Below, piece by piece: positions 14,570 to 55,684 of a DNA stretch of 64,000 nucleotides (its first letter is position 1; each line of letters starts with the position of its first letter). This DNA comes from an uncultured Cytophaga sp. (GTDB taxonomy: Bacteria > Bacteroidota > Bacteroidia > Cytophagales > Cytophagaceae): contig NZ_CALMGQ010000057.1 of assembly GCF_937863595.1 (NCBI RefSeq), forward strand, positions 1 through 64,000. Direction: 5' to 3'. The translations under genes and the position numbers were made by a program. A model generated the notes under the pieces. It did no database searches. It worked only from the letters and a program-made list of their open reading frames with translations, and was not told the origin of the DNA.

Positions 14570-14618
14570 TTTATAAAAAGAGCTCTTGAGATCGTATCTC
14601 AAGAGCTCTTTTTATAAA
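14570..14618. terminator. Bidirectional rho-independent terminator
   Basis: Perfect 23-bp inverted arms (14570-14592 and 14596-14618) with a CGT loop. The arms start with an A-run and end with a T-run, so it works in both directions, between the convergent hydroxylase and exonuclease genes. Confidence 0.92.
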
Positions 14619-18466: not shown

Positions 18467-18508
18467 TATTAATAAAAAAGGCTTCTTCGGAAGCCTTTTT
18501 TATTAATA
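18467..18508 (+). terminator. Rho-independent terminator with UUCG tetraloop
   Basis: Perfect 19-bp arms (18467-18485 and 18490-18508) close on a C(UUCG)G tetraloop, an unusually stable cap, with A and T runs at the two ends. It terminates the outer-membrane protein gene and could also act on the minus strand. Confidence 0.92.
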
Positions 18509-32019: not shown

Positions 32020-32025
32020 CTATTT

Positions 32026-32067
32026 AAAAACGCACCTACCAATATTAAAATTGATAGGTGCGTTTTT
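32026..32067. terminator. Bidirectional terminator after tRNA-Arg and dabA
   Basis: An 18-bp arm pair (32026-32043 and 32050-32067), with one C-A mismatch on the plus strand that is a G-U pair on the minus strand, begins with five As and ends in five Ts. It lies between convergent transcripts. Confidence 0.88.
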
Positions 32068-32083
32068 ATTTTCTCTTACAGAT

Positions 32084-34576
32084 TTAATTCACTACCGACC
32101 ACTTCAACTCTTTTTCATATCGATGACTTACTTTTCCATCTGCATTCATTGCAAGTAATTGAATCCAATTATTGTCTAGTAGGTTTCGAACCATTTCGTG
32201 TTTGGCTATGATTTTATTCATCGCTTCCATCGGTGCTTCTATTACTACATTCAGTTTCACTGGTTCGTGTTGATAGTTCTCTCCATCAAAGACTGATTGT
32301 AGTGGCAAGCCAACGCGCAGGTCTCCAGAGTAGCCTTCTAAGACACCCACACCTGCGGTGATATTATGAAGCGTTTTATTCCCTGATCCGAAGTTTTTAT
32401 TGTCTACCGTAGATGCATAGTACTGCAAGTTAATCCAACTTGTTACCACCATAGGCGCAATCATAATTAATTCCAGTATTGAAAACTCTGTATCCTTTTC
32501 CCATTCGTAAGAGTGCAAGAACGATTTACTTCCAAAGTCTAAGCCCTTCGTACGTTCGCGGGAGGCAACCACAAAACCATAACATCCTGCCAAGCCCCAC
32601 TCCGGACGAATTTGCGACCAATCTTTACTTCGAGCTATGACAGAGCCGCTGATGTCTGATTTGCTTATAGAAGACATACGTGCAGCGCGTTCTATACGGC
32701 TACTTTTACCTGCATCCGCTAAGGATTTTTTCAAGGCTGTGAATTCGACTATTTGATTACTTGGCACTTCATACGCGTTATAGATGTGTATCTCATCTGT
32801 TGTAGTATCGTGTAAACAAGTTAAGAAAACTGTATCTGCAGGAATGTGTATGTTATGTTGAACCAAACCTTCGCGGACTTTTTGATTATTAAAGACTGCT
32901 GCTGCAACGCGTGCATTCGATTCCCCCGTGTGTCCGCCACATGCGCCACAATCCAAACCTGTTGCATGTGGGTTATTTACGGTTGAAGAACCGTGACCTG
33001 TGATGAGAATAAATTTTGCGAAGTTATCCTTAAGCGACATCGCTGTCAAGGCATTCTTAGCCATTGTTATTTGTTGCTCTAGCGGAATACCTGCTGTTTC
33101 ATTTCCAAATTGACTCGCATCTAATCGGATGCGTTTGTTTTTCAACATAGATTTTGATATGCCTACGGTGTCTGGATGTGGCACAGGGCGAGTTAAGCCA
33201 AAAGAATCGGTAAATAATTTTGGCAAGAATGAAAGCCCAAGTGGACTCACATAACTAAAGCATGTTACAGCACCATGCTTTACCGATTTTAATAGTTGAC
33301 GTGCATGATGATTTACTAGACGTGCATCGAATGCCTTACGTGTAGCATCTGGCGACGACATTTCTTCTAAAATCGTTGGCCCCGTTTTTAACAACACTGG
33401 GCATTGCGCTTCTCCATGTTGGTGCGCTAAGGGTACGTAATTGATTGAGAATGCAAAGAAGCCAGCAAAACCCAATGTATCAATGGTATTATCTGTTGCT
33501 TCTAAATTTCGACGGAATACTTCGGAACGTACATCTATGCAGAATACAGCTTGTGCGGAAGGGCGTTTATGAACTGGTTTATGAACAGCTTTTTTTGAAT
33601 TGATTTGCTGAATCAGCTGAGATTGCATCGCACGATCAAATGCGTCCTGCGCAATCAACTTGTACTCCAACTCTTGATTGGGCTTTGCATGCAGGCCAAT
33701 CAAAAAGAATTGTACGTATGCTTCTTGCCATTTCAATTTAATATCTGTGTGATCAATGCAAGACAACATACTTGCTTCCCAGCAAAGCAATACAGCTAGA
33801 AACTCGATTAATTCTCCATCTTTACCGCCGTATAATTCGTTATCCCAATCAACACGAGCCGCATAAGCAGCCCAACCACCAACACGTAGTAATAATCGAT
33901 GTAGGTATAAAGACACCATTTCTTCAGGAATATTTAGTTGGGCTAATGCAACTTGTGCTGCATCCAAGGCATTCTCTGGAAATGCCTGCACCTTTTTTTG
34001 AAAGCCAGTCAATCCCATCAACTCAGGCGTACGGTCACGAATGGTTTCCGACTTCCATGATGAAAATAATCCTGTATTTTTATTATTGGCTTTCCAAACA
34101 GCTTGTCCATCATCAAAATAACTAGCGGCCCAAAAAGAGATGCGACTTACCAAAAATCGATTCCAGTCTTTATGGGTAAGTGCAGAGGCAATATCAGTAA
34201 CGGTTGGAATTGTAACATTCTTATCCCCATTTTCTTTTAAGGATTTTAATTTTTGCATGTATGTATCATACGTCCCTTTGTGTTTTTTAGATAGCACAAA
34301 TTCGATATCTGTTTTCGTGATTACACCTTCTTCTATTTTTTTAAGATAAAAAGAAATAGGCAAGGTCGTTTGAATATCTGCAACGCGTTCAAGTTGAGTT
34401 GCCACTTCCTTAAAGTCGTTTTGTATCATCCCTAAATACGGGTTTACTGCTACAAAATTATCAAGTGACCAAAGCGGAGCGATTTTTTTACACGCATTTC
34501 GCATGGTGTCAATCAAGGGCACTTTTTGAATTACTTTTTCTATTTGTATGCTTTCAGTTTCCATAATATGTTCCAT
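32084..34576 (-). CDS. dabA: Inorganic carbon transporter subunit DabA (DUF2309)
   Basis: The large soluble subunit of the DAB system resembles a beta-carbonic anhydrase and is thought to hydrate CO2 to bicarbonate vectorially, driven by its membrane partner. The zinc-site signature is complete: AVFCIDVRSE (Cys and Asp two apart) and later GHGSS with the His 15 residues before the first Cys of DCGACGG. That His-Cys spacing is as in Halothiobacillus DabA. I favour the ATG at 34576 (MEHIMETES); the frame extends to 34651 into dabB. It directly follows dabB on the same strand. Confidence 0.93.
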   Translation of the reverse strand: MEHIMETESIQIEKVIQKVPLIDTMRNACKKIAPLWSLDNFVAVNPYLGMIQNDFKEVATQLERVADIQTTLPISFYLKKIEEGVITKTDIEFVLSKKHKGTYDTYMQKLKSLKENGDKNVTIPTVTDIASALTHKDWNRFLVSRISFWAASYFDDGQAVWKANNKNTGLFSSWKSETIRDRTPELMGLTGFQKKVQAFPENALDAAQVALAQLNIPEEMVSLYLHRLLLRVGGWAAYAARVDWDNELYGGKDGELIEFLAVLLCWEASMLSCIDHTDIKLKWQEAYVQFFLIGLHAKPNQELEYKLIAQDAFDRAMQSQLIQQINSKKAVHKPVHKRPSAQAVFCIDVRSEVFRRNLEATDNTIDTLGFAGFFAFSINYVPLAHQHGEAQCPVLLKTGPTILEEMSSPDATRKAFDARLVNHHARQLLKSVKHGAVTCFSYVSPLGLSFLPKLFTDSFGLTRPVPHPDTVGISKSMLKNKRIRLDASQFGNETAGIPLEQQITMAKNALTAMSLKDNFAKFILITGHGSSTVNNPHATGLDCGACGGHTGESNARVAAAVFNNQKVREGLVQHNIHIPADTVFLTCLHDTTTDEIHIYNAYEVPSNQIVEFTALKKSLADAGKSSRIERAARMSSISKSDISGSVIARSKDWSQIRPEWGLAGCYGFVVASRERTKGLDFGSKSFLHSYEWEKDTEFSILELIMIAPMVVTSWINLQYYASTVDNKNFGSGNKTLHNITAGVGVLEGYSGDLRVGLPLQSVFDGENYQHEPVKLNVVIEAPMEAMNKIIAKHEMVRNLLDNNWIQLLAMNADGKVSHRYEKELKWSVVN

Positions 34577-34626
34577 TATTGTATGATGTATAAAATGAAT
34601 AAATTTACTTTCGTTTATGAATTGAA

Positions 34627-36237
34627 TTAAGCGTTTGAATCTTCTTTCCATTCAAAGCTATTCTTTGAATCTTTAATTCGTAATGCCCCAACCAGTCTAT
34701 CGAATAGCGCATTCACATAAAATCCATTTCTTAGATGTATTGCCCAAGATTGGTATACAGAAGTCTGCGTTAGATACGGAGATAGAATTTGAATAAACAC
34801 TGCAATAACATACACAAGAAGTATGCTTACGATCAATACCATTTCAACCAAACTCGGCTGAACTAAAGCTGGTAATTGATTTGCTATTAAATAATGTGTC
34901 GTTGATTCTAATACAAAGAATGCAGTTGTAATGATCAATGCTAGAATCGTAGCTCGCATTAATAAGAGCGCACTATTCTCAGAATCAATAGCGTTTGTAA
35001 ATAGGCGAGCCAGACCCAAAACCAATATTGCACCGATTGCAAAGAGCGCAAATTGTTCTTGTATATTCATTCCCCAAAGCAATGCAAAAGAAGTGTAGAC
35101 AACTACTGCCATCAAAATTCCGAGTATAATTTTAAAAGGACTTCCTGCACGTTTCAGTGGGGTAATTTTCAAACCACGTTTTAATTCTATTGCACTACCT
35201 GAAGAAAGAAATGCATGAGCTTTATAAAAAGAGTGTGCAACCAAATGCAACATAGCGGCGGCGTACATGCCAAGTCCACATACAAACAGACTAAAGCCCA
35301 TGTGTGCAACACTCGAATAACCCAATGCAGTTTTTACGGATGTTTGAGTTAAGTATACAACCGATGCGAACAATGCTGTAAATCCCCCAATCGCAATGAG
35401 TAATATCGGTGCGTACGTACTTAAGTCCATAATGTATGACATGCGTATGATTAAAAAGGGGCCTGCATTTAACAAACCAGCGTGTAATAAAGCAGATACG
35501 GGCGTTGGGGTTTCCATTACCTCAATCAACCAACCATGTGATGGGAATTGAGCAGATTTAATTAATGCTGCTAGGGTAATAAACAAAGCCGTCAATTCAA
35601 TCAGATGCACATTTGCAACCGTATGGTTTTTAAGTTCAGTGAAAATAATTTCAAAATTACCCGTTTGAAATTGCATGTATAATAATGCACATGCAGTAAA
35701 TAAACTGGCATCAGCTAATCGTGCGAGCAAAAACTTTTTGCGTGCTACAACAATTGCGCCCGGACGGTTTGGATAAAACACCAGTAATCGATGTAACGAA
35801 ATACTTGTCAATATCCATGATATCATAAGCAAGCCTATGTTGCCCGAAAGTACCAACAATTGCACACATGCAATGGTTGCAGCAAGCCGACCGATAAATG
35901 CTCCTTGGCGTTTTTCGCCATCCAAATAATTTAAACTAAATTTTACGATGATAAAACTCAACAATGCAATCATCGTAAACATGATTACACTAATGGAATC
36001 AAGGCGAATACTGAATCCGATTTGATTCATCCCTAATAGTTTACTTTCTATCAAACCATTATTATAAACGAGTACACAACTAATTGCTGCAACAAGTAAA
36101 CTCACATACGTAGTGATGGTAGCAAAGCCTTTAACAATGTTTGGACGCATACCTGGTTGAAACCAAGATACGATTGCGGTAAGGGTACAAGCAATCGGTG
36201 GCAGAATAGCGATAAGTGATATAAATTGATTTTCCAC
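34627..36237 (-). CDS. dabB: Inorganic carbon transporter subunit DabB (NuoL-like)
   Basis: The 536-residue membrane protein is related to the antiporter-like subunit NuoL/MrpA, with about 13-14 helices and the conserved segment FPSHGWLIEVMETPTPVSALLHAG, which carries the proton-pathway residues of this family. In DAB transporters it provides ion-gradient energy to DabA. Pairing with DabA directly downstream identifies it as DabB rather than a stray complex I gene; no other nuo genes are near. It is preceded 19 bp upstream by a small unknown gene, which forms the operon start. Confidence 0.92.
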   Translation of the reverse strand: MENQFISLIAILPPIACTLTAIVSWFQPGMRPNIVKGFATITTYVSLLVAAISCVLVYNNGLIESKLLGMNQIGFSIRLDSISVIMFTMIALLSFIIVKFSLNYLDGEKRQGAFIGRLAATIACVQLLVLSGNIGLLMISWILTSISLHRLLVFYPNRPGAIVVARKKFLLARLADASLFTACALLYMQFQTGNFEIIFTELKNHTVANVHLIELTALFITLAALIKSAQFPSHGWLIEVMETPTPVSALLHAGLLNAGPFLIIRMSYIMDLSTYAPILLIAIGGFTALFASVVYLTQTSVKTALGYSSVAHMGFSLFVCGLGMYAAAMLHLVAHSFYKAHAFLSSGSAIELKRGLKITPLKRAGSPFKIILGILMAVVVYTSFALLWGMNIQEQFALFAIGAILVLGLARLFTNAIDSENSALLLMRATILALIITTAFFVLESTTHYLIANQLPALVQPSLVEMVLIVSILLVYVIAVFIQILSPYLTQTSVYQSWAIHLRNGFYVNALFDRLVGALRIKDSKNSFEWKEDSNA

Positions 36238-36256: not shown

Positions 36257-36604
36257 TTATATAAGTTCTATTTCTATGTTTGAAGTAATTTTCAGTAGTT
36301 TTTTTTGTGTAGATGCTGATTCAATCAAATCATACATTCTATTTTTACTGACTGTTAATTGATCAATCCTATTTTCAGAATATGCATCTGGTTCACCAAA
36401 ACGAATTTCATTACTAAAACTCCTTTTCTTATGAAAATCAATTTTCCCAGTAATTAAATTCATTATGATTTCTTTTGCATCTTCTGGAGAAAAACTTCCT
36501 AAAATCAACTCAAAGGATTGAGGGAGGATTTCGCTACTTGTGTTTTCTTTTTCCATAGACGTATATGTGTTTGTCATGTCCCAAAATTTGGAAAAAATAA
36601 TCAT
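36257..36604 (-). CDS. Small soluble protein, first gene of the dab operon
   Basis: The ORF encodes up to 115 residues with no signal peptide or membrane helix and an acidic, Ser/Glu-rich start. I recognise no domain. The middle segment (FSPEDAKEIIMNLITGKIDFHKKRSFS) and the C-terminal TQKKLLKITSNIEIELI look like a folded alpha/beta protein. Three starts are possible: 36604, 36577 and 36556. The last two would leave a normal leader after the palindromic operator at 36621-36663. Its position before dabB suggests an accessory or regulatory subunit of the transporter. Confidence 0.7.
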   Translation of the reverse strand: MIIFSKFWDMTNTYTSMEKENTSSEILPQSFELILGSFSPEDAKEIIMNLITGKIDFHKKRSFSNEIRFGEPDAYSENRIDQLTVSKNRMYDLIESASTQKKLLKITSNIEIELI

Positions 36605-36620
36605 ATATTTTTATTTATAG

Positions 36621-36663
36621 TTAATATGTAATACATAAAAACTTTTTATGTATTACATATTAA
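36621..36663. promoter_or_regulatory. 43-bp perfect palindrome with twin LysR-type boxes upstream of dab
   Basis: The arms 36621-36641 and 36643-36663 are perfect inverted repeats around a single C. Each arm contains a smaller symmetric box, TATGTAATACATA (36625-36637) and TATGTATTACATA (36647-36659), each fitting the LysR T-N11-A pattern with a dyad. The boxes are 22 bp apart centre to centre, about two helical turns. It is low in G+C and has no trailing T-run, so it is a better operator than terminator. It lies between the LysR gene and the dab operon. Confidence 0.65.
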
Positions 36664-36955
36664 TCAGAATCTAATACAACTTAAATACATGCTAGGAAGA
36701 TGAAGCAAAGACTGTTATGTGATTTTAAAAAATTGATTTCCAGCCAACTAATAATATAAACCTTTAAAAAAAACTCGAAAATAGTTTTATAAAGTAAAAA
36801 TGAATGACATATCTAATTCTACCATTGCAATTAGAAAGCTTAAACCCACGCCCTATAAAAATCCATTTTTACATTGATTTAAAGGAAATAGATTCAGAAT
36901 ATCGAGCAATTTAAAAATACTACTTTTAAAAATGAGCACTTAATTTGTACCATTA

Positions 36956-37903
36956 CTATTTCTTCAACTTTCTATCTACTTGAATAGCATCAATCCAGGA
37001 GAAGTTCTTTTTAAGAATTACCTTTTTATTTTCTCGGATGTAATCAACATATGCTTGCGCCACAGGAGATAGTTTTTTTCCTTGTAACCAAACCAATTGC
37101 CAATTTGATTTAATAGGAAAACCCACTGTAGGTATTATTTTAATATCCCCACAACCGAGCTCATACCTTAAACCGATTAGTGGCAAAATTGAATTGCCCA
37201 ATCCAGCAATCACTGCTTGCTTTACAGCTTCATTAGAGGTTAGCTCCATTTTTTTCCGCACCTTGATTTTATGTTCGTTAAAATAATTTTCCATAACAAC
37301 GCGCGTGCCTGAACCATCCTCTCTAAAAATAAGTGGCATTTCTTTTAATTCATTCTTTGTTATTTTATTCTTTGAAATAATTTCATTTTTATCCCCCACT
37401 ACAAAAAGCTCATTCTCCATTAAGGTTTCTTTATTGATCTTTATATCTTGGGGCAAAACAGATATCAATGCAAAATCCACTTCGTTGTTGTGTAAACTGC
37501 TCATCACTTTTGATTTATTAGTCACATCCATCACCAAGTCTACACCTGGGTTTTCTTTTAGAAATTCCGTTAAAAAATAAGGCATCACGTATTTACCCGT
37601 TGATACAATTGAAATAATTAAGCGCCCAGATAAAAATCCTTTGTAGGCCATTGTTTTGTAATTAATGGCATACACTTCATTCAATATGCGTTCCGCTATA
37701 AAATATATTTCCTTCCCAAAATCGGTTACATATAATTTTCTACCGACGATTTCAATTAATGGAATTTCAAATTGATCTTGAAAGTTTTTCAATTGTATGG
37801 ATACTGCAGGCTGGCTCAAATGCAATTCTTCGGAAGCTTTAGTAATACTTTTAGCTTGTACGACTTTAACAAATACCTGCAACTGATGAAGCGTATAATT
37901 CAT
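36956..37903 (-). CDS. LysR-type transcriptional regulator, CbbR/CmpR-like
   Basis: The 315-residue protein has the N-terminal winged HTH (MNYTLHQLQVFVKVVQAKSI, then SKA-SEELHLSQPAVSIQLKNF) and a periplasmic-binding-type effector domain. The segment YVMPYFLTEFLKENPGVDL and the TNKSKVMSSL stretch resemble CbbR/CmpR regulators of carbon fixation and bicarbonate uptake. It lies upstream of the dab operon on the same strand, with 351 bp between, which contains the palindrome. It probably controls dab in response to a carbon metabolite. The effector is unknown. Confidence 0.88.
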   Translation of the reverse strand: MNYTLHQLQVFVKVVQAKSITKASEELHLSQPAVSIQLKNFQDQFEIPLIEIVGRKLYVTDFGKEIYFIAERILNEVYAINYKTMAYKGFLSGRLIISIVSTGKYVMPYFLTEFLKENPGVDLVMDVTNKSKVMSSLHNNEVDFALISVLPQDIKINKETLMENELFVVGDKNEIISKNKITKNELKEMPLIFREDGSGTRVVMENYFNEHKIKVRKKMELTSNEAVKQAVIAGLGNSILPLIGLRYELGCGDIKIIPTVGFPIKSNWQLVWLQGKKLSPVAQAYVDYIRENKKVILKKNFSWIDAIQVDRKLKK

Positions 37904-38149
37904 AACTGATTCAATAAGGAAATTAGTACCACATCAAATATAATTAAAAATAAACAATCAAAATGTTGCTTGTGGCCCATTTAATTGGAAAGTGAGCCTA
38001 GTTAAAACTACTCGTATATTTTTAAAAATAAGCAATATACCTATGAAAAGCATTTCTGAAAATAACAAAACCGAAGACTGTATTAAAACTAAAAAAGCAA
38101 ATTGTGCATTTTTTAAAAATTTAACGAATTGAAAATTATACCTGTGTTC

Positions 38150-38953: not shown

Positions 38954-39170
38954 ACTATTTTATATAAATTGTTGTCGCTTTAATCTAGTTAATAATTATG
39001 AAGAACTTCTGAAGAATTATTAACTTATTTTTCTAATTGTGAAATGTGATAGCCTTCTGAATTAATAACAACCAGGCAATAGTTTGGTTTAATTTTACTG
39101 GTTTAATTTGAATCACATTTCTTTTAATTCACTCACCAAAATTAATTTTATTCTATATGTGTTCCTTCGT

Positions 39171-40116: not shown

Positions 40117-40551
40117 TTATCTTTTAAGGAATGTTAAACCATTCTTTTGATCAATTGCCAAATTGTAAATTGAAGTATTCTCTAACATCTTCTTCAATTC
40201 ATTGCGGATTGTTTTGAATTTTTCATGTACGGGACATGGATGCTTTTCTGAACATTCTTTCATACCTAGGCCGCAGCCTTTGTAGATAGAATCCCCATCA
40301 ATTGCGAATACAACATCACTTAATTTAATTTTTTTCATTTGTTGCACACTCATCTCAAACCCTCCGGTTGGCCCTTTGGTTGATTCTACTAAATCATTCT
40401 TTGATAAGATCTGCAATATTTTCGCTGTAAATGCTTCCGGTGAACCGATTTCTTTAGCAATCTCCTTCAAGCCTACTCGCTTTTCATCCTGAGATAAAAC
40501 CGCAATATGGATTATTGCTCTTATTCCGTATTCACACGCTTTTGAAAACAT
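40117..40551 (-). CDS. Rrf2-family transcriptional regulator (NsrR/IscR type)
   Basis: The 144-residue protein has an N-terminal winged HTH (MFSKACEYGIRAIIHIAVLS, then KEIAKEIGSPEAFTAKILQILSKNDLVES) and a three-cysteine loop C93-x6-C100-x5-C106. That spacing, close to NsrR and IscR, indicates an iron-sulfur cluster. Adjacent globin and hemerythrin-like genes favour NO or oxygen sensing rather than cluster biogenesis. It is the first gene of a minus-strand run and probably autoregulated. Sensor ligand is inferred, not shown. Confidence 0.88.
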   Translation of the reverse strand: MFSKACEYGIRAIIHIAVLSQDEKRVGLKEIAKEIGSPEAFTAKILQILSKNDLVESTKGPTGGFEMSVQQMKKIKLSDVVFAIDGDSIYKGCGLGMKECSEKHPCPVHEKFKTIRNELKKMLENTSIYNLAIDQKNGLTFLKR

Positions 40552-40747: not shown

Positions 40748-42205
40748 TCAACCTCCGCCAAGCGCTCTGTAGAAATAAACAGTAGCTTTCAATTGTTCTT
40801 TTTTTGTTTCAACTAATTCCATTTTCGATTCTAATGCATCACGCTGAGTTAATAATACTTCCATGTAATCTGCTCTTGCAGAAATGAAAAGTTTATTAGC
40901 AATATTAACAGATTCATTTAATGCTTCTACTTGTTGATCTTGTAACTCGAAACTTTTGCCAAGATTTGAAATTTTTGCCATTTGATTTGAAACTTCAATA
41001 AACGCATTCAAAATTGTACGTTCGTAGTTGTATGCCGCTTGCAATTGTTTTGCATTTGCAGTTAAATACATCGCTTTAATCTCATTTCTATTTATAAGTG
41101 GCCCAACAAAAGTACCTGCTAATGAAAACAACATGGACTCCGGACTACTAATTACCAACTTCGGGTTAAATGCTTCTAGCCCAATACCACTTGTAATTCT
41201 AAAGGTTGGATAGAAGTTTGCCTTTGCTACTTTTACATCCAATTTCGATGCTTCTAAATTATGCTCCGCTTTTTTAATATCCCATCTATTAGATAACAAC
41301 TGAGAAGGAACGCCTGCATAAATAGAATCATGTACAATATCAATAAATGTAGCAGGGTTGCGTTTAATAGGTTTTGGATAGCTCCCGATCAAGAAGTTTA
41401 AATGATTCTCTGCTTCAACAATTTCTTGCTGAATTTTAAATTGCAAACTTCTTGTATACAGTACTTGTGCTTCAAACCTGCGAACAGCCAGCTCCGTTAC
41501 CTTTGCAGATTGCTTTTCCATTCGTACAATTGAAAGAGCATTGCTTTGAATTTCAATATTCTTTTTTAAGATTTCCAATTTTTTATCAAGAGCTAATAAC
41601 TCGTAATACGTGCTGCCTATTTCAGCAACGATATTGGTAATCATAAAGTTTCTGCCTTCGACGCTTGCTAAATATCTCAGTACAGCTGCCTTTTTTGCAT
41701 TGCGTAATTTTTTCCAAATATCTACTTCCCATGATAGATTTACTCCTACCACATAATTCGGCAATACAGTTGGAATGCGTTTCCCATTTTGTATATCCAA
41801 GTTGTCATCAACCGCGCCTGTTCTAGTATACTTGCCTGCTTTTTCAACACCGGCACCAACACCTCCGTCTACGTATGGCAAATACTGTCCTTTACGTGCA
41901 CGTACTTCAGCTTGAGCTACATTAATTTCGTATAAAATAATGTTTAGCTCCTGGTTATTCTGAAGCGCAGTATCGATAAGCGCAACTAAATTTTCATCCT
42001 TGAAATATTTTTTCCAACTAACATCTACAGTATTCAGTGTATCTGATGACTGTGCTGAATTTAAATGTGTTGAATCTGCTAAGTTTGTATATTTCGAAGG
42101 TAAATTATCATTAACGGACTTTTTCGTTAATGTTGGCGTACAAGCCCATACAGCTATTGTCAATATAGCTATACCAATAAATTTATATAGATATGTTTTA
42201 TGCAT
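40748..42205 (-). CDS. Outer-membrane efflux lipoprotein (TolC/OprM-like)
   Basis: The 485-residue protein has a lipoprotein signal (ILTIAVWAC lipobox) and two copies of the outer-membrane efflux protein repeat with long coiled-coil helices, as in OprM. It would form the outer-membrane duct of the tripartite pump. I take the ATG at 42205 (MHKTYLYKFIG) over the open frame to 42226, since the shorter form gives a proper signal peptide. Its start overlaps the RND gene stop by 8 bp. It is followed by a long-stem terminator. Confidence 0.9.
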   Translation of the reverse strand: MHKTYLYKFIGIAILTIAVWACTPTLTKKSVNDNLPSKYTNLADSTHLNSAQSSDTLNTVDVSWKKYFKDENLVALIDTALQNNQELNIILYEINVAQAEVRARKGQYLPYVDGGVGAGVEKAGKYTRTGAVDDNLDIQNGKRIPTVLPNYVVGVNLSWEVDIWKKLRNAKKAAVLRYLASVEGRNFMITNIVAEIGSTYYELLALDKKLEILKKNIEIQSNALSIVRMEKQSAKVTELAVRRFEAQVLYTRSLQFKIQQEIVEAENHLNFLIGSYPKPIKRNPATFIDIVHDSIYAGVPSQLLSNRWDIKKAEHNLEASKLDVKVAKANFYPTFRITSGIGLEAFNPKLVISSPESMLFSLAGTFVGPLINRNEIKAMYLTANAKQLQAAYNYERTILNAFIEVSNQMAKISNLGKSFELQDQQVEALNESVNIANKLFISARADYMEVLLTQRDALESKMELVETKKEQLKATVYFYRALGGG

Positions 42206-45200
42206 GATGATTGTTTGATGAATCATGATTGTTACCTGAATGATAATTGCTGTCTTCGCTTAAAGGATTAAAATCTTCATCGTTAATCAATTTACGTCCT
42301 TCTGACATACTACCAAATATATAGTATAAACCAGGTACAATGATTACGCCGAAAATAGTACCGAAGAACATTCCGCCTAAAGAGGCTGCTCCAATAGTTC
42401 TGTTACCAATTGCACCAGGTCCTGATGCCAGAAGTAATGGAATCATTCCAGCAATAAAGGCAAATGACGTCATTAAGATTGGTCTAAATCGAGCTCTTGC
42501 ACCTTCAATAGCTGCTTCTAATACTGTAGCACCTTGTTGATTTTTCATAATTGCAAATTCAACAATCAACACGGCATTTTTACCCAGTAAACCTACTAGC
42601 ATTACCAAGGCTACTTGTCCATAGATATCATTTGCCATTCCAAATCCTTTAATAAATAGGAAGGCCCCAAAGATACCCGCTGGAAGAGATAATATAACTG
42701 TCAATGGTAATAAAAAGCTTTCGTATTGTGCAGCAAGAACTAAATACACGAATATCAATACAATTAAGAAAATATAAACCGCTTCATTTCCACGAGCAAC
42801 TTCATCCTTTTGTAGTCCAGACCAATCAATGTCATAACCTTTAGGTAATGTAGCGGCTGCTACTTCTTGAATTGCTGTAATCGCTTCACCACTACTAAAG
42901 CCTTCTGATGGAGAACATCTAATAGATGCTGTTGTATACATGTTGTAACGATTGATTTCGTAAATACCTTGTGTCTTTTTAATTTTCATAAAAGAGGAAT
43001 AAGGTACTTCTTCGCCATTTTCACTTTTCACATATAATTTTAAAATATCTGAAGGTAATTTTCTAAATGATGGATCAGCTTGAACAAACAACTTAAAGAA
43101 ACGTCCAAATTTAATAAAACCAATATCATAAGTACTACCAACCATGATGGAAAGATTGTCCATGGCACGTTTAATAGAGACACCTTTTTGCATGGCCAAT
43201 TGATTGTCAATTTCCAATTCATATTGAGGATAATCCGTTCTATAGAACGTAAACAAAGCGCTAATTTCTTTTCTCTTCTCAAGATCTTTCATGAATTGTT
43301 TTGTTACGCCATCCAAACGATCGTAATCAATGGTGGTGTTTTTATCTAATAATTGAAGACCAATACCACCAGCAGCACCGTAACCAGGAACTGCAGGAGG
43401 ATCGAAAAATTCAATTTTTGCACCCGGAATATTTTCTCTAACCTTTTCTAACTCTTCTGTAATCTCTCTTACATTGTGTTTACGTTCGTGCCAAGGCTCT
43501 AAGTTGATTAATAGTGTACCTGAGTTAGATCCTCTACCTTGTGTTAAAATTTCATACCCTGCCAATGCAGATACAGAACGAACACCTTCAATTTTTTTAA
43601 CTTTATCTTGAAGTTCTCTGCTTACCTCATATGTTCTCTCAAGTGTAGATCCAGGTGGTGTTTGTAGCACTGCATAAATCATCCCTTGATCTTCAGATGG
43701 AACAAAACCAGAAGGTAAATATCTTGTAAGTAAGGCTGTTAAAACCGAAAATAGTATTAACAATCCAATTGTTACCATTTTTCTGTGGGCGATAAACCCA
43801 AGCACCCACATATATTTGTCTGTAAGTTTATCAAATAGCCTGTTGAAGCCATCTAAGAATCTATTTAATAAATTACGCTTACGTGGTTGCCCATGCGTAT
43901 TTTTAAGAATCATCGCACATAAAACAGGAGTCAACGTAAGTGCTACAATACCAGAAATTACAATTGACGAAGCCATTGTGATTGCAAACTGTCTAAAGAA
44001 AATACCTACTGGACCAGTCATAAATGCTACGGGCACAAATACTGAAACCATTAATAAGGTAATTGCGATAATGGCACCACTAATTTCTCCCAATACTTCT
44101 TTTACTGCTAAAAAAGGTGAGAGATGTTTCTCCTCCATTTTAGCGTGCACGGCTTCTACTACAACAATCGCATCATCCACAACAATACCGATAGCAAGTA
44201 CGAGTGCAAACAAGGTTATCAAGTTTATATTCAAACCAAATATTTGCATCATAAAGAATGCACCAATTAAGGAAACAGGAACGGCTAGTACTGGAATAAG
44301 CGTTGAACGCCAATCTCCAAGAAATATAAATACTACTATGGAAACCAATATAAAGGCATCTCTCAATGTATGAATTACTTCTTCAATAGATGCATCTAAG
44401 AAACTAGATACATCATACGCGATTTCATATTCAACACCTGGTGGAAAATCCTTTTTAAGCTCTTCTAATTTTACTTTTAATCGTTCAATAACAATAGTGG
44501 CATCACTTCCAGGAGCTTGATTCAATGTAATCGCAGCAGATGGGAATTCGTCTTTATTCGAATAGATATCATAATATTCACTACCCAACTCAACAGTTGC
44601 GATATCTTTCAATCGAAGTACTTCCCCTTTTTCATTTGCTCGGATAATGACATCTCTATACTGAGCTTCCTCCGAGTATCTACCAGGGTAGGTTAATACA
44701 TATTCAATTGCTTCAGACTTTTTACTATCTGCCCTGCCTATCCTACCAGGAGACCCAATGATGCTCTGCTCGTCGAGCGCTTTCATTACTTCTTCGGAGG
44801 ATACATTATAGGCTCGCATTCGATCTGGATCTAACCAAACACGCATAGAGAACTGACGACTACCGATGATACGAGCGAATGCAACTCCTTCAACACGTTG
44901 CAACTCTGGCAACATATTGATGTAGGTATAGTTAAATATATACTTCATGTTAATTCTAGAAGTATCTTTACCATACACGTTCACATACATCAACATATTT
45001 GGCATTAAGCGTTGTACAATTATACCTTCAAGTTGTACAAGCGGCGGAAGACGCATCTTCACCTGCTCCAGACGATTTTGTACGTTTACCAATGCTTGAT
45101 TGGGATCTGTACCAAGGTTGAAAACTATTTGCAAATTGGCTTCACCCGAACTCGCACCTGTAGTAAACATATACTTCATTCCAGGAACACCATTAATTGA

Positions 45201-45401
45201 TTGTTCCAAGAGGATAAGTACGGACTGTGCAAGTACCGTTGAACTTGCACCAGGATATGATGCATACACCACAATCATAGGTGGTGCAATATCTGGATAT
45301 TGTGATTTGGGTAGTGTTTTAATTGCCAGAAAACCCATGAACATAATCACTAGCGATATAACAATCGCTAAGGCTGGCCTACGTATAAATTGTTGAAACA
45401 T
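42198..45401 (-). CDS. RND multidrug efflux transporter (AcrB-like)
   Basis: The 1067-residue inner-membrane pump has 12 transmembrane helices and two large periplasmic loops. The proton-relay aspartates lie in GIVVDDAIVVVEAVH near residue 405, and FVPSEDQG and the GPGAIGNRTIGAASLGGM segment are typical of the HAE-1 family. It exports drugs, bile-like amphiphiles or solvents. It is the middle gene of the operon adaptor-pump-TolC; spacing to the adaptor is 30 bp. Substrate range is unpredictable. No TetR regulator is next to it. Confidence 0.95.
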   Translation of the reverse strand: MFQQFIRRPALAIVISLVIMFMGFLAIKTLPKSQYPDIAPPMIVVYASYPGASSTVLAQSVLILLEQSINGVPGMKYMFTTGASSGEANLQIVFNLGTDPNQALVNVQNRLEQVKMRLPPLVQLEGIIVQRLMPNMLMYVNVYGKDTSRINMKYIFNYTYINMLPELQRVEGVAFARIIGSRQFSMRVWLDPDRMRAYNVSSEEVMKALDEQSIIGSPGRIGRADSKKSEAIEYVLTYPGRYSEEAQYRDVIIRANEKGEVLRLKDIATVELGSEYYDIYSNKDEFPSAAITLNQAPGSDATIVIERLKVKLEELKKDFPPGVEYEIAYDVSSFLDASIEEVIHTLRDAFILVSIVVFIFLGDWRSTLIPVLAVPVSLIGAFFMMQIFGLNINLITLFALVLAIGIVVDDAIVVVEAVHAKMEEKHLSPFLAVKEVLGEISGAIIAITLLMVSVFVPVAFMTGPVGIFFRQFAITMASSIVISGIVALTLTPVLCAMILKNTHGQPRKRNLLNRFLDGFNRLFDKLTDKYMWVLGFIAHRKMVTIGLLILFSVLTALLTRYLPSGFVPSEDQGMIYAVLQTPPGSTLERTYEVSRELQDKVKKIEGVRSVSALAGYEILTQGRGSNSGTLLINLEPWHERKHNVREITEELEKVRENIPGAKIEFFDPPAVPGYGAAGGIGLQLLDKNTTIDYDRLDGVTKQFMKDLEKRKEISALFTFYRTDYPQYELEIDNQLAMQKGVSIKRAMDNLSIMVGSTYDIGFIKFGRFFKLFVQADPSFRKLPSDILKLYVKSENGEEVPYSSFMKIKKTQGIYEINRYNMYTTASIRCSPSEGFSSGEAITAIQEVAAATLPKGYDIDWSGLQKDEVARGNEAVYIFLIVLIFVYLVLAAQYESFLLPLTVILSLPAGIFGAFLFIKGFGMANDIYGQVALVMLVGLLGKNAVLIVEFAIMKNQQGATVLEAAIEGARARFRPILMTSFAFIAGMIPLLLASGPGAIGNRTIGAASLGGMFFGTIFGVIIVPGLYYIFGSMSEGRKLINDEDFNPLSEDSNYHSGNNHDSSNNHHA

Positions 45402-45431
45402 TTTATGCTTTTTTAAAAACTTCGAATGAAA

Positions 45432-46511
45432 TTATTCTGCGTGAATATTTAAATCTCTTATTACATCCTTTGGTTTTTTATAATCGTATTCAATCTTATC
45501 ATCTTCACTAACCAAACGTAAGCCTTCTAATAAAATCTTATCTCCTTCTACTAAACCTTTTGAAATAACATATAGGTTGGGTATTTCATTGCTGATTGTT
45601 ATTTCTCTCGATTTTAATACGTTGTCTTTATCTACTACATATACATACTTTGTATTCAATACTTCAAATGTAGCTTTTTGAGGAATAATTAAAGCATCTT
45701 TAAATGGAACGTTTACTATAACATTGCCCGTTTCACCATGTCTTAACAATCTATCTGGGTTTTGAAATGTAGCACGAAATGCAAGATTACCAGTTTCATT
45801 ATTAAAGTCCGCTTCGATTGTTTCTACCACACCAATTTGATTGAACATTTTATTATTAGCCATTTCCAAGCCAACCTTCATATTGCTATCTTTAATAAGG
45901 TTGGTTTTGTAATCCAAATATTCTGCTTCGGGAACATTAAAATACACCCACATTTGACTGATATCTGAAAGTGAGGTTAACAAATCGCCCTCATCCAATA
46001 AACTTCCTTTTCGAACTTCCAATCGATTCATAATTCCATCAAAAGGTGCTCTGATTTGAGCAAAGCTTAAATGCGCTTGTGCTAAATTTAATTCTGCTTT
46101 TGCTCTTTCGAACTTCGCTTTCGCCATTAACAATTCATTTTTTGAAACAACATTGCTATCAGCAAGTGCTTTGGTATTGAGATACTCAATCTCAGCAAAG
46201 TTCATTTCTGCTAGTGCCTTTTGTTGATCCGCTTGATAAAGTACTGGCAAAATTTGAAACATCAATGTCCCTTGTTTTACGAACTTTCCTTCATCTATAA
46301 AATAGTCTTGCAAATAACCTCTTTCAAGTGCGCGTAATTCAATATGCCTAATGGCTTTGATTTGACAAACATATTCTTTAGTCGTACTTGTATCCATACG
46401 GATTGGGCTCGTTACTAAAAACTTTATCTTTTCTTTTTCTTTGACATGTTCTTCGCAACTGGTTTCGCACAATAAGAGTGCTAAACTCAATAGGATTAAT
46501 AATTTTTTCAT
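45432..46511 (-). CDS. RND efflux periplasmic adaptor (membrane fusion lipoprotein)
   Basis: The 359-residue AcrA/MexA-type protein has a lipoprotein signal (LLCETSC lipobox), a barrel-sandwich hybrid domain split by a coiled-coil hairpin (about residues 60-165, with LNLAQAHLSFAQIRAPFDG as the return), and a beta-barrel domain. It bridges the pump and the outer-membrane duct. It is the first gene of the operon. The 410-bp spacer upstream should hold the promoter. Confidence 0.93.
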   Translation of the reverse strand: MKKLLILLSLALLLCETSCEEHVKEKEKIKFLVTSPIRMDTSTTKEYVCQIKAIRHIELRALERGYLQDYFIDEGKFVKQGTLMFQILPVLYQADQQKALAEMNFAEIEYLNTKALADSNVVSKNELLMAKAKFERAKAELNLAQAHLSFAQIRAPFDGIMNRLEVRKGSLLDEGDLLTSLSDISQMWVYFNVPEAEYLDYKTNLIKDSNMKVGLEMANNKMFNQIGVVETIEADFNNETGNLAFRATFQNPDRLLRHGETGNVIVNVPFKDALIIPQKATFEVLNTKYVYVVDKDNVLKSREITISNEIPNLYVISKGLVEGDKILLEGLRLVSEDDKIEYDYKKPKDVIRDLNIHAE

Positions 46512-47622: not shown

Positions 47623-47677
47623 TATCCTATTAAAAAGGCTCGTGAACATAATGTCCCCGAGCCTTTTTAATAGGATA
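47623..47677. terminator. Bidirectional rho-independent terminator
   Basis: Perfect 20-bp arms (47623-47642 and 47658-47677) with a 15-nt loop and A/T runs, between the convergent membrane-protein gene and glmS. Confidence 0.93.
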
Positions 47678-55610: not shown

Positions 55611-55625
55611 TTTTTGTTGATTTTT

Positions 55626-55670
55626 CTACATAAAAAAAGCTCTGAAAAATTCAGAGCTTTTTTTATGTAG
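55626..55670. terminator. Bidirectional rho-independent terminator
   Basis: Perfect 20-bp arms (55626-55645 and 55651-55670) with a 5-nt loop and long A and T runs separate the small lipoprotein gene from the convergent PRC-barrel gene. Confidence 0.95.
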
Positions 55671-55684
55671 AATTTCTTTAATAA

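Follow-up and report, generated by a model that had tools for sequence, protein, structure and literature searches.

The window, by which we mean the whole stretch of 64,000 nucleotides that was analysed, carries lysR and, after a gap of 351 bp, a small gene, dabB and dabA, all on the minus strand and in this order of transcription:

32084-34651, minus strand: dabA (PF10070, E 5e-253)
34627-36237, minus strand: dabB (Proton_antipo_M)
36257-36556, minus strand: small gene, 99 aa, first of the operon and a conserved partner of inorganic-carbon (Ci) uptake genes
36956-37903, minus strand: lysR, a CcmR/CmpR/CbbR-like LysR-type regulator, the sole family member found in the genome

With a DabA of PF10070 and DabB adjoining, the dabBA pair is a putative DAB-type inorganic-carbon pump. 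The dabB-dabA pair is common to the window and the known DAB inorganic-carbon accumulation operons, whereas the small gene and a palindromic operator are extra in the window. The start of the small gene was revised by homology from 36604 to 36556; the first in-frame ATG, at 36604, falls inside the promoter element described below. The small protein has no match in Pfam, NCBIfam or PDB, and its predicted structure (strand-helix-helix-strand, pLDDT 92) gave no match among the PDB folds at E 0.001 or better.

In a comparison with PDB, the nearest solved relatives of the window LysR are CcmR (3.5e-59) and CmpR (4.3e-33; next 9.6e-23), which places it in the CcmR/CmpR/CbbR group. The best NCBIfam score was obtained with the CbbR model, but at 184.9 bits against a cut-off of 450 the protein does not qualify as a CbbR equivalog. 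Like CbbR of autotrophic proteobacteria, which is usually encoded divergently from its target, the window system combines a LysR-family regulator with a box of the T-N11-A type; it differs in this score far under the cut-off and in the genome, where a search for RuBisCO gave no match. SbtA was sought in the genome as well and none was found.

The gap between lysR and the small gene contains the following repeats:

36621-36663: perfect 43-bp palindrome, TTAATATGTAATACATAAAAA C TTTTTATGTATTACATATTAA, about -65 from the inferred dab transcription start
36625-36637, plus strand: site B, TATGTAATACATA, TATG-N5-CATA, a T-N11-A box and left dyad of the palindrome (columns 24-36 of the conserved element)
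36647-36659, plus strand: site B', TATGTATTACATA, an inverted copy of site B
36634-36650: inner dyad CATAAA-N5-TTTATG at the palindrome centre, kept in lysR-bearing and most lysR-less loci

An earlier note on this DNA had claimed a perfect palindrome of 43 bp, centred on a single C and containing two dyads of 13 bp at a distance of 22 bp, and direct reading confirmed it exactly: the 21-nt arms are 100% complementary around a one-base centre at 36642, and the 13-mers at 36625-36637 and 36647-36659 are 22 bp apart from centre to centre. It also lies where it had been placed, between lysR and the small gene-dabB-dabA run, downstream of the lysR stop and with all genes on the minus strand. The 3.97-Mb genome contains TATGTAWTACATA three times, twice at the palindrome and once apparently within an unrelated reading frame. 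The surrounding region is 77% AT, but the probability that the palindrome is a chance product of AT-rich DNA is negligible, and this reading was refuted, since shuffling yielded perfect arms of at most 13 nt (window, 60 second-order shuffles) and 14 nt (local AT-rich intergenic stretch, 2000 shuffles), compared with the 21 nt found, and since the base-by-base conservation of the element is overwhelming.

This conservation was analysed in 111 upstream regions of LysR orthologues, which came from the first search for relatives, from contigs of genomes and from a class-wide search, and in 57 dab loci. In 108 of the 111 upstream regions, exactly 8 nt separate the lysR ATG from a 38-bp core, CATATATTTTTATTTATATTTGTAATGATATACATAAA; CAAAnnT sits 20 nt ahead of this core, and many columns are near-invariant. 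The complete 57-bp element consists of the -7 box of the target, site A (ATAWAT-N4-ATTTAT), site B (TATG-N5-CATA) and the half-site TTTATG, which in relatives is the start of lysR; between site A and site B it also holds the -7 box of lysR, TATATTTG. The -7 box of the divergent target is TAnnTTTG read on the other strand; in Flavobacterium psychrophilum, TAnnTTTG has been reported as the sigma-A box, located at -12 to -5 (PMC9723704). In relatives, the element separates lysR from divergent targets such as dabBA or the genes for SbtA, isocitrate dehydrogenase and carbonic anhydrase. Among the divergent partners at 76 loci, the small protein (about 95 aa in relatives) was found 55 times, accompanied by SbtA, isocitrate dehydrogenase (icd), DUF6671, Sua5, carbonic anhydrase (CA) or dabBA, while the counts of the others were 34 for icd, 34 for Sbt, 25 for DUF6671, 16 for Sua5, 5 for dabBA and 3 for CA. 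Judged by sequence, the same switch design recurs across Bacteroidota beside other bicarbonate-related genes.

In the window, the remaining parts of the element are located as follows:

36582-36589, minus strand: AAATTTTG, a TAnnTTTG-type -7 box for dab; its distance of 20 nt to site A is the same in relatives
36602-36619, plus strand: site A, CATATATTTTTATTTATA, an ATAWAT-N4-ATTTAT dyad and the conserved partner of site B, centred about -34 from the inferred dab start
36616-36623, plus strand: TATAGTTA, the decayed remnant of the -7 box that served the divergent lysR before its loss, compared with TATATTTG in relatives

A scoring matrix built without the window's own site gave 48.4 bits for 36583-36639, compared with a median of 51.7 for the training set of orthologues and -5.4 for the runner-up in the 64 kb. 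Furthermore, when a sequence-only profile was run against the whole genome, the window site was the sole significant one (E 1.6e-5; next 0.06). Sites A and B are preserved, as is the dab promoter, whose -7 box is one position off TAnnTTTG; from the position of this box the dab transcript would start at about 36577 (rule from PMC9723704). Counted from this start, the palindrome is centred at about -65 and site A at about -34. LysR-type regulators usually recognise the target promoter near -65 and have another site near -35. The LysR box proposed in the earlier note, T-N11-A with an inner dyad, is indeed present as TATGTAATACATA, and site B is conserved at base level with or without an adjacent lysR. 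However, the two boxes B and B' are not the general tetramer footprint that had been suggested. The site that is conserved together with B is site A, which lies towards the promoter and had been overlooked in the earlier note. The alignment of dab upstream regions from relatives, advised at that time, accordingly had a divided outcome: site B is conserved, B' as a complete dyad is not, and only its inner TTTATG is general. From these sequence comparisons we predict that the palindrome is very probably the distal part of a LysR-type operator controlling the small gene-dabB-dabA operon.

Two other functions of the palindrome were considered. It could terminate the lysR transcript, or act as a bidirectional terminator, since it is situated downstream of lysR and would fold into an RNA hairpin of 20 bp and about -19 kcal/mol. 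However, it starts 293 bp past the lysR stop, has 12% GC and is not followed by a T-run, in agreement with the earlier judgement that it makes a poor terminator, and it sits inside the promoter element of the next operon. Five strong terminator-like repeats that were checked in the window (I1, I2, I3, I6, I7) are in contrast all located between convergent genes and have 24-36% GC. Moreover, relatives carry the element with a divergent lysR, whose transcript it cannot terminate there, which makes the terminator reading highly improbable. The strong inverted repeats at 14570-14618, 18467-18508, 32025-32068, 47623-47677 and 55624-55672 of the window, with GC-containing stems and situated between convergent genes, are probable bidirectional terminators.

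It is also conceivable that the dyads serve another regulator, e.g. the Rrf2/NsrR-type protein encoded at 40117-40551, and that the conservation with LysR is incidental. The sequence TATGTAATACATA is akin to several short palindromic operators and the Rrf2 gene is only 3.5 kb away, but the element follows the LysR gene phylum-wide, also where the neighbours differ, and we regard this assignment as very unlikely. A candidate operator of the Rrf2 (NsrR-type) protein is an imperfect inverted repeat at 38987-39025, upstream of the hemerythrin gene in the Rrf2-globin-hemerythrin-Fer2 cluster.

In the window, lysR is in tandem to the dab operon, compared with a divergent lysR at 8 nt in 108 of the 111 orthologues. 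In a genome of the same genus (G001), lysR points away from the small gene and dabBA. In the LysR tree, the window protein is placed outside the dab-linked clade, which includes the G001 protein, and belongs to the sister clade, where it groups with four proteins (L034, L036, L037 and L038), none of which has dab genes in the stretch covered. This placement, the decayed lysR box TATAGTTA and the tandem lysR together indicate loss or replacement of the divergent lysR that was ancestrally present; judged from the tree, the neighbouring lysR and the ancestral dab-linked gene are not orthologues. The postulated link between a CbbR-like regulator and a DAB transporter in a non-autotroph is supported with regard to the LysR-type dab operator and the genome without a RuBisCO match, but not with regard to the adjoining lysR as the ancestral partner. 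That the window LysR recognises the palindrome is assumed from the family-wide box. A search for coding remnants of the lost lysR in 36605-36955 gave no convincing match. Upstream of the present lysR, 37919-37956 on the minus strand is a weak candidate for a decayed copy of the element; it keeps TATATTTG and is the second-best place in the window for sites A and B, yet it scores inside the shuffle range. The closest relative of the window LysR (81%; L034, 122-4867) has the same operator, across which its gene faces away from a 118-aa ORF; MFP and RND efflux genes come after this ORF and are 64-67% identical to 42198-46511 of the window.

Loss of lysR from the element was found at other dab loci as well. 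Among those of the window's subtype, lysR lies 8-9 nt from the element in 37, and the element is kept without lysR there in 20. For Fisher tests, 14 non-redundant lysR-less loci, the window included, were compared with 101 lysR-bearing loci; related loci were counted as independent after a coarse redundancy filter, so that the p-values are inflated by kinship. A perfect site B, TATG-N5-CATA, occurs in 11 of the 14 lysR-less but only 8 of the 101 lysR-bearing loci (p 3e-8; 1.5e-7 with the window left out). The core TAnnTTT of the lysR -7 box shows the opposite distribution and is kept in 1/14 compared with 87/101 (p 5e-9; 2e-8 with the window left out). In five genomes whose dab locus carries no lysR at the operator (G518, G563, G557, G620 and G045), the single LysR of the family is encoded at another place, where it has an element of its own that scores 16.5 to 51.2 bits; in G518 this lysR is divergent from SbtA, away from the dab locus. 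These results fit one regulator that acts on dab in trans. Dab loci of other subtypes from other genomes of the same taxonomic order (L216-L221, n=6) have no operator in the fetched stretch.

A further alternative concerns only the second dyad. The TATG of B' stands where lysR, now lost, had its start codon. The window shares a full B' with just one of 20 comparable lysR-less dab loci (G518): 13/13 outer bases match in the window and 12/13 in G518, compared with 1 to 6 in the remaining lysR-less loci. Within the LysR operator, B' could be a neutral by-product of template switching at a quasi-palindrome, with no regulatory role. Such an origin is consistent with the rarity of complete copies (2 of 21 lysR-less loci) and with the perfect or near-perfect arms of 21 and 19 nt, as they are yielded by template switching. 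However, the two palindromes have the identical spacing of 22 bp despite different, internally matching N5 spacers (TAATA and AGTTA), and the inner TTTATG persists in most lysR-less loci though no lysR begins there. More precisely, TTATG is kept in 14 of the 21 lysR-less loci, the window included, and the bases beyond it are not. Its retention where no lysR starts suggests that TTTATG at the palindrome centre is a candidate third half-site for the protein. Considering both sides, we give a neutral origin of B' slightly less than an even chance.

Starting from the LysR operator as the preferred reading, the following scenario can be proposed. In the ancestor, a single element between dab and the divergent lysR would have supplied the promoters of both. 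In the lineage of the window, the divergent lysR has disappeared and a lysR of the sister clade now stands upstream in tandem; the lysR -7 box has decayed, while the target promoter with sites A and B was retained, and the abandoned lysR start region may have turned into a second, inverted copy of site B. At present, two dimers of the neighbouring CcmR/CmpR-like LysR would contact the dyads centred at about -54 to -76, i.e. site B, the half-site TTTATG and B', and the same pair of dimers would also bind site A at about -34, beside the dab -7 box. Depending on the inorganic-carbon status, the regulator may repress or activate dab, possibly in response to a metabolite such as 2-oxoglutarate or NADP+, by analogy to known systems.

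The operators of CcmR and CmpR in cyanobacteria likewise put inorganic-carbon uptake genes under LysR-type control. CcmR (NdhR) represses Ci uptake genes including SbtA and uses 2-oxoglutarate and NADP+ as co-repressors (PMC3401165). SbtA, a CcmR target, is together with isocitrate dehydrogenase also among the commonest targets of the Bacteroidota element. The product of isocitrate dehydrogenase is 2-oxoglutarate, and since CcmR senses 2-oxoglutarate and NADP+, such an effector is plausible for the window LysR. The window system differs from CcmR and CmpR in its host without a RuBisCO match, in DabBA as target, in the operator sequence and in the TAnnTTTG promoter of Bacteroidota.

In a wider sense, Bacteroidota without RuBisCO-based CO2 fixation could possess a phylum-wide inorganic-carbon regulon comprising DAB, SbtA, carbonic anhydrase, isocitrate dehydrogenase, Sua5 and the small protein, controlled by a CcmR-like LysR through one fixed operator, in which the departure of lysR leads to the recruitment of the abandoned start codon as a half-site that can be completed to a full second dyad, as in the window and G518. 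We consider this combined view as possible rather than probable. A literature search, with most subscription journals outside its scope, found no description of such a regulon. The element would provide a testable link, at base level, between a LysR of the carbon-sensing type and DAB pumps in bacteria without visible RuBisCO CO2 fixation, in which the inorganic carbon presumably serves anaplerosis and biosynthesis. Moreover, with the conserved operator as a guide, a carbon regulon can be delineated from sequence throughout Bacteroidota, and a small protein family that accompanies the operator comes to attention.

Finally, DUF6671 (PF20376) and Sua5 recur in LysR-linked SbtA operons, as seen upstream of lysR in L053 (2806-4617) and similar loci. 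The substrates of Sua5 include bicarbonate, which may be the reason for its recurrence in these operons.
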